From the NCBI GenBank assembly GCA_013042765.1, contig JABDPP010000191.1:1-7387 (forward strand): 7,387 bases of DNA, read 5' to 3'. The notes under the pieces were generated by a model. It was given only the letters and a program-made list of their open reading frames with translations, was not told the origin of the DNA and did not search any database. This stretch comes from Litoreibacter sp. (GTDB taxonomy: Bacteria > Pseudomonadota > Alphaproteobacteria > Rhodobacterales > Rhodobacteraceae). Shown piece by piece: positions 931-1,940 of the stretch (positions are counted from its first letter, which is position 1; every line of letters starts with the position of its first letter). The translations under genes and the position numbers were made by a program.

Positions 931-971
931 CAAAAAAAGAAACGACAACGTCGGGAGGAGACGTTGTCGTT
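931..971 (-). terminator. Intrinsic terminator of the DUF1127/Cuckoo-RNA operon (hairpin D)
   Basis: A perfect 12-bp inverted repeat, AACGACAACGTC (941-952) and GACGTTGTCGTT (960-971), encloses a 7-nt loop (953-959). Read on the minus strand, the stem-loop is followed by TCTTTTTTT (932-940), a classic rho-independent terminator. The loop, with its flanking base, reads CUCCUCCC on the minus strand, so the terminator hairpin is also the last of four CCUCCUCCC-type hairpins. The plus strand also carries a T run (971-978), so it could work in both directions, but no plus-strand gene reads into it. Confidence 0.93.
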
Positions 972-1009
972 CTTTTTTGCCGGGTTCCTTTGGGAGGAAA
1001 GGAGGCCCG
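931..1009 (-). ncRNA. Cuckoo/CcsR-type small RNA, distal unit (hairpins C and D)
   Basis: This is the second half of a tandem hairpin array downstream of the DUF1127 gene. Hairpin C: CGGG (981-984) pairs with CCCG (1006-1009) and CCTTT (987-991) pairs with AAAGG (998-1002) across a small internal loop. Its 6-nt loop (992-997) reads CCUCCC on the minus strand. Hairpin D is the terminator stem with loop UCCUCCC. RNAs with two stem-loops that expose a CCUCCUCCC anti-Shine-Dalgarno-like motif are the CcsR or Cuckoo RNA family, described from Rhodobacter sphaeroides as stress-induced regulators processed from a DUF1127 (CcaF1) mRNA. Hairpin C is the most diverged member. Grouping C with D is inferred from spacing: 9 nt between C and D, 18 nt between B and C. 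Mature ends are not visible in sequence. Confidence 0.78.
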
Positions 1010-1027
1010 CGCCTTCATTTGCAGCAA

Positions 1028-1098
1028 CGATATCCAGGGAGGAGGAGAATACCGTTACCTATCAACGTGGTGAACCAAGGGAGGAGGAGGTTCCCACG
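1028..1098 (-). ncRNA. Cuckoo/CcsR-type small RNA, proximal unit (hairpins A and B)
   Basis: Two hairpins follow the DUF1127 stop codon by 7 nt on the minus strand. Hairpin A: CGTGG (1066-1070) pairs with CCACG (1094-1098) and GAACC (1072-1076) pairs with GGTTC (1089-1093), with one bulged base at 1071. Its 12-nt loop (1077-1088) reads UCCUCCUCCCUU on the minus strand. Hairpin B: 1028-1035 pairs with 1047-1054 over 8 bp, including two G-U pairs. Its 11-nt loop (1036-1046) reads UCCUCCUCCCU. Both loops hold the full CCUCCUCCC motif. In R. sphaeroides such RNAs are co-transcribed with the upstream DUF1127 gene, released by RNase cleavage, and affect C1 metabolism and stress responses. Compensating G-U pairs and a bulge in otherwise unrelated stems suggest selection for the fold. 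The motif and the hairpins are seen; family assignment and processing are inferred. Confidence 0.85.
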
Positions 1099-1105
1099 CG
1101 AATTC

Positions 1106-1306
1106 CTATTTTCCGTACGCAGCCTCGTAGGCGATGCCGCGCAAGAGCGTTTTGTTCAGACCAAGATCATTCAGCTCGCTTGCCGAAAGACCTCTGAGCT
1201 CAGCCAGCGTCCGGCTATACACCCTGTATTGGGCAAAGCGGAGCTTCAGCGCAGCGATCGAATGGGCAACACCATGCGAAAGGGTGAAATCGGAAACGAA
1301 AGTCAT
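1106..1306 (-). CDS. Small DUF1127 protein, CcaF1-like
   Basis: This complete 66-residue basic protein has a DUF1127 (YjiS-type) domain in its C-terminal half: RFAQYRVYSRTLAELRGLSA, then SELNDLGLNKTLLRGIAYEAAYGK, about residues 23-66. Small DUF1127 proteins are common in alphaproteobacteria. The R. sphaeroides member CcaF1 binds RNA and influences sRNA maturation and RNA turnover. The link to CcaF1 here rests on the domain plus the CCUCCUCCC hairpins that follow the stop codon directly. The ATG at 1304-1306 is preceded by AAAGGA (1318-1323) at an 11-nt spacing, a slightly long but usable ribosome-binding site. The first 20 residues (MTFVSDFTLSHGVAHSIAAL) are less conserved in the family and contain no signal peptide I would trust. 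The gene and the hairpins should form one transcript from a promoter near 1355-1383 to the terminator at 931-971. Strict orthology to CcaF1 is not proven, because genomes carry several DUF1127 paralogues. Confidence 0.9.
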   Translation of the reverse strand: MTFVSDFTLSHGVAHSIAALKLRFAQYRVYSRTLAELRGLSASELNDLGLNKTLLRGIAYEAAYGK

Positions 1307-1354: not shown

Positions 1355-1383
1355 AATATCGGGCAAATGCTGCAGTGCGACAA
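1355..1383 (-). promoter_or_regulatory. Candidate (RpoH-like or sigma70) promoter of the DUF1127/Cuckoo operon
   Basis: On the minus strand, TTGTCG (1378-1383) lies 17 bp before GATATT (1355-1360). Together with the bases before it, the -10 region reads CCCGATATT, which resembles the C-rich -10 element of heat-shock sigma factors (CCCCATnTA). Transcription would begin near 1348, about 42 nt before the ATG. RpoHI/RpoHII control is known for the related R. sphaeroides operon. Here it is an inference from a weak match, and plain sigma70 use is possible. Half of a 12-bp inverted repeat lies in the spacer. Confidence 0.45.
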
Positions 1384-1418
1384 TAGACAGACTTACAATG
1401 CCGCTATGCAGCATTTGC
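1363..1418. repeat. 12-bp perfect inverted repeat in the DUF1127 upstream region
   Basis: GCAAATGCTGCA (1363-1374) and its exact reverse complement TGCAGCATTTGC (1407-1418) are separated by 32 bp. Their centres are 44 bp apart, about four helical turns, so both would lie on the same DNA face. One copy lies in the spacer of the candidate DUF1127 promoter and the other about 60 bp upstream of its predicted start. This is the layout of a paired operator bound by a looping or cooperative regulator. The distal half is itself part of a 5-5-5 palindrome (ATGCA/TGCAT, 1406-1420). The binding protein is unknown. Confidence 0.55.
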
Positions 1419-1735: not shown

Positions 1736-1940
1736 CAGATGAGGACGGGCTCACAAAACGGGGCACTTAAAGAACCCCACTGGCGACCAAAAGGTTTCAT
1801 ACAGGCACCCGATTTCATCTAACGACGGTCGATCCTGCGCGAGCAGACATCCCCCCAGGTGGCGCGGATTGACCACTCCCTTAGGGGAAAAAGAGCGGCG
1901 GATTGGGCAGTGGCAGCAGCTCAATCCGCCGTTTCATTTT
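1736..1940 (+). ncRNA. upsM: UpsM-like leader RNA upstream of mraZ
   Basis: In R. sphaeroides the dcw cluster has an unusually long 5' leader, from which premature termination releases an abundant sRNA of about 200 nt, UpsM (upstream sRNA of mraZ). Here a plus-strand promoter candidate (start near 1736) and a strong intrinsic terminator (1896-1940) enclose about 205 nt in the same place, with no credible open frame. Local folds include CTGC-GCGA-GCAG, a GNRA-type tetraloop hairpin (1835-1846), GGGG/CCCC flanking an A/U-rich loop (about 1761-1779), and GGTGG/CCACT (about 1859-1877). The 3' terminator would give the Hfq-friendly U-rich tail typical of sRNAs. The position and terminator are seen; the identity with UpsM rests on synteny and size, since I could not align the sequences. 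The 5' end is uncertain. Confidence 0.6.
1896..1940 (+). terminator. Intrinsic terminator (attenuator) in the mraZ leader
   Basis: CGGCGGATTG (1896-1905) pairs perfectly with CAATCCGCCG (1922-1931). The stem extends inward by G-U, G-C and C-G pairs to 13 bp, leaving a 10-nt loop (1909-1918). A T-rich tract, TTTCATTTT (1932-1940), follows directly. No gene on this strand ends upstream, so the terminator acts on a transcript starting in the mraZ leader. It probably releases a short RNA and lets part of the polymerases continue into the dcw genes. The interrupted T tract (one C, one A) fits incomplete termination. Confidence 0.82.

Follow-up and report, generated by a model that had tools for sequence, protein, structure and literature searches.

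The minus strand of the DNA analysed here probably carries a CcaF1-CcsR operon that yields two small RNAs (sRNAs) of two hairpins each, predicted to silence Shine-Dalgarno (SD) sequences, from a predicted RpoH promoter that is likely shut by PhaR when storage polymer is lacking. The window, by which we mean the whole stretch of 7.4 kb, comes from a bacterium related to Litoreibacter (Rhodobacter group), whose assembly is 80% complete and totals 2.6 Mb on 449 contigs; in our genome set, the window genome and G171 fall into one genus. The plus strand of the window holds a uvrD/pcrA-like tail and, after a gap, mraZ and the genes of the division/cell-wall cluster, and the minus strand holds a gene for a LysE-type translocator, a hairpin array and a gene for a DUF1127 protein. 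Among relatives, a divergently oriented mraZ is visible at 52 of 81 loci.

The DUF1127 gene (1106-1306, minus strand) encodes a CcaF1-like small protein of 66 amino acids. The initial annotation had recognized it as a 66-codon gene, and a match to Pfam PF06568 (32.6 bits, cut-off 23.3) confirms the assignment. Matches to the protein were found in 158 of 198 genomes of the family and in all 21 genomes of the same genus, the window genome included. The gene stops at 1106 and the first hairpin begins at 1103 on the same strand, a layout of the kind found in the ccaF1-CcsR1-4 operon of R. sphaeroides (CIN1). Plus-strand open reading frames of the sort that gene callers might report here (831-1073, 881-1426 and 964-1197) do overlap the array region.

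Four hairpins had been proposed behind the gene, and all four were recovered at the proposed positions when the segment 1103-937 of the minus strand was folded. The fold of these 167 nt has -65.4 kcal/mol, whereas 200 dinucleotide shuffles average -42.0 kcal/mol and none of them folded as well (z -5.89). With the stems of all four extended, hairpins 1 (1061-1103, loop UCCUCCUCCCUU) and 2 (1023-1059, loop UCCUCCUCCCU) are the first and second members of CcsR-like unit 1 and carry the complete CCUCCUCCC in their loops. Hairpin 3 (979-1012), the first of unit 2, has a bulged stem and a loop of just CCUCCC, the preceding UCCUUU being paired; it is the weakest of the four, was detected at the lowest detector threshold only and was missed by a hairpin detector based on local folding. 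Hairpin 4 (936-976, loop UCCUCCC), the second of unit 2, has 13 pairs and is followed by a T tract, so that it is an anti-SD hairpin and an intrinsic terminator at once, matching the Rho-independent terminator of CIN1. The earlier description of the loops as CCUCCUCCC or a close variant is thus correct, with the complete motif in two of the four (hairpins 1 and 2). Compared directly, the four stems are unrelated in sequence, as had been stated, and the array has the CCUCCUCCC-type loops on free stems that characterize CIN1, loops 3 and 4 being incomplete versions. The motif CCTCCTCC occurs three times in the window, two copies overlapping and all inside the array, a number matched by 2 of 200 shuffles. 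One arm and the loop of hairpin 3 (987-1006, minus strand) read CCUCCUUUCC, which we take to resemble the 3' tail of 16S rRNA.

Arrays of this kind recur behind the DUF1127 gene throughout the family. We fetched 139 of the 158 matching genomes, 138 with a BLAST hit to the window protein and one without, and at least two anti-SD hairpins lie 3' of the gene in 126 of the 138 scored (threshold 15, at which the window itself counts three hairpins, hairpin 3 being weak). At the same threshold, in 81 loci, the density of motif hairpins is 11.5 per kb over the 500 nt that directly follow the gene, compared with 0.084 per kb in the remaining sequence, both strands counted. Across the 126 array loci, 747 copies of CCTCCTCC are located up to 600 nt 3' of the gene, and 703 of them are part of a hairpin loop, compared with 9 of 29 elsewhere. 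Within the same genus, 20 of 21 further loci have 2-8 hairpins, and the sole locus without any corresponds to the weaker of two DUF1127 hits in G210 (threshold 12 for both). In 524 hairpins of 78 arrays, pre-selected for having a stem, the two arms of a hairpin pair at 7.45 of 8 positions, compared with 4.24 of 8 when arms are swapped within the array. The three positions directly preceding the CCTCCC anchor (itself at 2.0 bits by construction) are conserved at 1.3-1.8 bits, and stem positions mostly lie near or under 0.4 bits. Loops that varied as freely as stems among relatives would have spoken against selected structure; the relatives that we checked do not show this. At least four T follow the last hairpin in 56 of the 78 arrays. 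With the last hairpin serving as terminator, the hairpins might be thought merely to stabilize the 3' UTR and terminator of the DUF1127 mRNA, a reading that we consider highly improbable, given that a terminator has no need of four hairpins whose loops are conserved while their stems vary freely, and that the homologous arrays of R. sphaeroides are reported to be processed to sRNAs (PMC8625941, PMC10253847).

The spacing of the hairpins points to pairs. An even number of hairpins is found in 61 of 78 arrays, and in the even-numbered arrays the median gap is 5 nt within pairs (194 gaps) and 30 nt between pairs (133 gaps). The gaps in the window, 1, 19 and 9 nt, fit two units, hairpins 1 and 2 and hairpins 3 and 4. 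We rejected the equation of the four hairpins with CcsR1-4, because one CcsR RNA has two hairpins, RS0680a (CcsR1) being described with two stem-loops (PMC3927594); the window array therefore corresponds to two CcsR-like units. Array size ranges between genomes from 2 to 24 hairpins, the latter number in L360. In G051 (L033 and L096), a motif spacing of 114-116 nt is repeated four times over, which suggests recent tandem duplication of units. A second array was not found in the places examined in the window genome (80% complete), where a search with the RF02344 profile gave two weak extra hits and 30 of 45 places with CTCCTCCC were read. Besides the window, this genome showed solo hairpins only, among them hairpins with UCCUCCUCCCC- and GUCCUCCCA-type loops on the minus strands of contigs 83 (L221, from 441) and 194 (L234, from 2316). 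Genome-wide, CTCCTCCC shows no enrichment (45 occurrences versus 63 for the reversed pattern).

The covariance search that the initial annotation had suggested did not assign the array to a curated family. The best Rfam hit, RF02344 (ar14), reached 41.9 bits (E 2.8e-5), below the curated 58.8, and RF02791 (CcsR1) 18.1 bits, below the curated gathering score of 65.3. Of 394 genomes of the family, 291 match CcsR1 at E 1e-5 and only 17 pass the cut-off, which is therefore narrow; the window genome is not among the 291, and the same search at E 1e-5 also misses the array of G003. Rfam was accordingly set aside as a membership test that is too narrow, the CcsR1 cut-off being missed by the window and by 377 of the 394 genomes. 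Since both scores are below their cut-offs, we label the locus a CcaF1-CcsR type operon and not a member of an Rfam family: the window array is outside both families as curated, and membership, as judged from sequence, is by the gene pair, the layout and the loop-constrained hairpins. The assignment to the CcaF1/CcsR ("CIN1") type that had been made at the outset is supported by the DUF1127 gene, the array with anti-SD loops, the terminator, the RpoH-like elements and the family-wide layout. The operon adds a new member to a class that had been described before, and the two-hairpin unit and the loop conservation were likewise already known. Like ccaF1-CcsR1-4 of R. sphaeroides, it comprises a DUF1127 gene, hairpins with anti-SD loops behind it and a closing terminator, with a candidate RpoH-type promoter, but it has two two-hairpin units, not four or more, and loops 3 and 4 are incomplete. 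It also resembles Sinorhizobium ar14/NfeR1 (RF02344), which has consecutive CCUCCUCCC-loop hairpins on unrelated stems; NfeR1, however, is reported to have its own promoter and three hairpins (PMC10746234), whereas the four hairpins of the window lie 3' of a DUF1127 gene.

Alignment of 21 upstream regions from the same genus revealed a strongly conserved block, roughly 50-115 nt 5' of the start codon in the window, which holds two dyads. Both are of the PhaR type: operator 1 (AAATGCTGCATAGCGGCATTG, 1396-1416, minus strand), within the block conserved family-wide, scores 20.3 bits with a matrix built from PhaR/phaP sites only, and operator 2 (TATTGTCGCACTGCAGCATTT, 1365-1385, minus strand) scores 19.6 bits. 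Their centres are 31 bp apart, and no other place in the 7.4-kb window exceeds 12 bits. R. sphaeroides PhaR is reported to bind CTGCNNNGCAG (PMC12542648), from which the two dyads depart at one and two of the eight defined bases, respectively. Operator 2 overlaps the -35 element of a candidate RpoH-type promoter (1355-1383, minus strand), composed of TTG (1383-1381) and CCCGATATT with TAT (1358-1356) and delineated from the family alignment, with a putative start site; the ATTG and CCYATNTT blocks are conserved in that alignment, and the RpoHI/RpoHII consensus is given as TTG at -35 and TAT at -12 (PMC10673084).

A first scan with the consensus, allowing up to two mismatches, hit 51 of 81 loci, compared with 2 hits in 596 kb of background. 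Because circularity was to be avoided, the matrix was trained on PhaR loci alone, from 60 tandem sites in 25 of 34 such loci (30 best PhaR hits and 4 picked for showing sites), none of them at ccaF1. With it, 112 of the 126 array loci score 12 bits or more somewhere in the 330 nt upstream, compared with 5 such sites in 376 kb of background. Thirty column-permuted matrices found sites in 0-4 of the 126 loci, ten rounds of shuffled upstream regions gave 0-2 loci and the divergent mraZ upstream regions 0 of 64. In a named set of 80 loci, with genomes partly shared with the main set, 75 have the array, 73 the site and 68 both; the site is also present in 16 of the 17 loci passing the Rfam CcsR1 cut-off. 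The window promoter differs from those of most genera in that both of its dyads fit the PhaR matrix, whereas elsewhere only the distal one does: the proximal position reads ATTGTGCANNYGCAGCAT in most other genera, rarely reaching 10 bits, and may there be mainly promoter. Just 4 of the 126 loci have two sites of at least 10 bits that are 25-35 nt apart.

PhaR-type sites also occur apart from arrays. Four DUF1127 genes (L107, L325, L339 and L346) with 0, 0, 0 and 2 downstream hairpins have upstream sites of 23-26 bits, and further DUF1127 paralogs may likewise belong to the PhaR regulon. At the two other DUF1127 genes of the window genome, the top PhaR-type scores are just 3.9 and 6.7 bits, and CTCCTCC is absent from one locus and from up to 1.4 kb downstream in the other. 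In two genomes of the same genus, a PhaR-type site lies just 5' of a gene for a ParA/MipZ-like ATPase (contig 194 of the window genome, L254:1501-1517; L247:1500-1516).

The window genome encodes PhaR. Contig 310 carries, in this order, the end of phaC (TIGR01838, 437 bits; the gene is truncated where the contig stops), two dyads in tandem at a distance of 28 bp, an open reading frame of 178 amino acids and phaR (TIGR01848, 156.7 bits). The open reading frame at the phaP position has no Pfam or NCBIfam hit and in its longest version overlaps the second dyad. In L. roseus the arrangement is alike, with phaC, the dyads in tandem, a protein scoring 24.8 with Phasin_2 (cut-off 24.9) and phaR. The operators of the window resemble those of PhaR-repressed phaP promoters, with paired CTGC-N3-GCAG-type sites 31 bp apart, compared with 28 bp at the phaP of the same genome; at phaP1 and phaP2 of S. 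meliloti, two copies of the site are reported to flank the -35 element (PMC12542648). Unlike phaP promoters, however, the window promoter precedes genes for sRNAs and a protein of the RNA-binding type instead of a phasin gene, and the centre of its distal site differs. Throughout the family this centre is a near-fixed AT[A/G], which is disfavoured by the phaP-site matrix, and conservation extends past the dyad into a flanking ATGCA. The distal dyad may therefore represent a distinct class of PhaR site or be read by another protein. That the same operon is under a different regulator of CTGC-N3-GCAG-like sites, with PhaR uninvolved, would account for the centre and the flank of operator 1, but we regard it as rather unlikely, since the matrix trained on PhaR loci only finds the site across the array loci with controls near zero, and the promoters of the window and its genus have two dyads at about the spacing seen at phaP.

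Genomes that lack PhaR bear on the same question from both sides. Of 198 genomes, 7 lack PhaR, and arrays with two or more hairpins are present in four of the 7. Two of these four, G003 and G150 (100% complete; PhaR and class I PhaC absent), keep the array, yet their upstream scores are 2.1 and 1.8 bits and no PhaR-type site above 7.8 and 5.8 bits, respectively, occurs within 1.6 kb upstream, which argues against a regulator other than PhaR; remnants of the conserved block persist in both, which favours such a regulator. Favouring it as well, the PhaR-negative metagenome-assembled genomes G098 and G166 (84% and 71% complete) retain the site. Upstream scores are below 12 bits in 12 PhaR-positive array genomes. 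The resulting test of site loss (Fisher p 0.012), with two informative genomes only, the PhaR-positive side unfiltered for completeness and the two incomplete PhaR-negative assemblies excluded, is small and points in the direction of a PhaR link. G120, with a divergent PhaR, has no site scoring over 4.7 bits in the 1.6 kb upstream; it was excluded from the count, its matched DUF1127 gene (L081) being located 3' of a separate anti-SD hairpin pair, with two array pieces flanking the gene. The Rfam CcsR1 match is found in 1 of 8 PhaR-negative and 261 of 338 PhaR-positive near-complete genomes (Fisher p 0.0003, tallied by eye), a co-occurrence to which we give no weight because the PhaR-negative genomes are mostly small and the CcsR1 search misses some arrays.

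Under control by PhaR, the reading that we prefer, the operon could work as follows. The RpoH-type stress promoter would drive the DUF1127 gene and the array as one transcript, by analogy with transcription by RpoHI/RpoHII in R. sphaeroides, and PhaR is predicted from the operators to shut this promoter while storage polymer is absent. PhaR is reported to repress phasin expression and to be released by PHA granules (PMC3079617); at the ccaF1 operon, polyhydroxybutyrate (PHB) granules would similarly titrate PhaR away and leave the operon open to RpoH. RNase E, together with CcaF1, would then cleave the transcript to give two sRNAs of about 80 nt, each with two hairpins, by analogy with the processing described for the ccaF1-CcsR precursor of R. 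sphaeroides (PMC10253847, PMC8625941). Expression of ccaF1 is reported to be very low in the stationary phase of wild-type R. sphaeroides (PMC11354728), which counts against the proposed sign, since this alone gives no hint that storage opens the operon.

The C-rich loops would pair with SD sequences and silence mRNAs by covering their ribosome-binding sites, an action that we extrapolate from R. sphaeroides and Sinorhizobium. An array that is mainly a decoy for a protein (CcaF1, Hfq or another), or a broad titrator of SD sequences, would fit the wide range of array sizes and the scan of the window genome for strong SD complements, which found no enrichment (6 sites versus 5 for the reversed pattern). 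We nevertheless deem such a role improbable in view of NfeR1, which with three such loops silences ntrB through its aSD seeds in reporter tests (PMC10746234), and of CcsR1-4, which are reported to target flhR mRNA (PMC8307010).

Extended to the family, the data incline us, with moderate confidence, to regard the CcsR array as a branch of the PhaR regulon in which PHB status would, together with RpoH, set the output of a general SD silencer. MmgR of S. meliloti is a different sRNA from the CcsR-type array and, to our knowledge, has no DUF1127 partner. It embodies the same idea of a PhaR-controlled sRNA, its repression by PhaR (AniA) having been reported (PMC12542648). A literature search, with the original CcaF1, CcsR and cuckoo papers outside its scope, found no prior link between PhaR and CcaF1, nor between DUF1127 and polyhydroxybutyrate; in the portion of PMC11354728 examined, the mentions of DUF1127 and polyhydroxybutyrate are unrelated and PhaR is absent. 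If PhaR does read the operator, carbon storage would be joined to stress sRNAs, two fields not linked in the literature searched, and the amount of SD silencer would be set by carbon-storage status along with the RpoH stress sigma factors. It would also suggest why the supply of acetyl-CoA is where these sRNAs act, since pyruvate dehydrogenase and C1 metabolism are reported to be affected by the CcsR RNAs of R. sphaeroides (PMC8307010, PMC8625941).

Elsewhere in the window, an inverted repeat with 13 bp arms, one mismatch and a T-rich tail lies 5' of mraZ (1896-1931, plus strand), at a position matching that of a terminator reported for UpsM, from the dcw leader of Rhodobacteraceae (PMC5089854).
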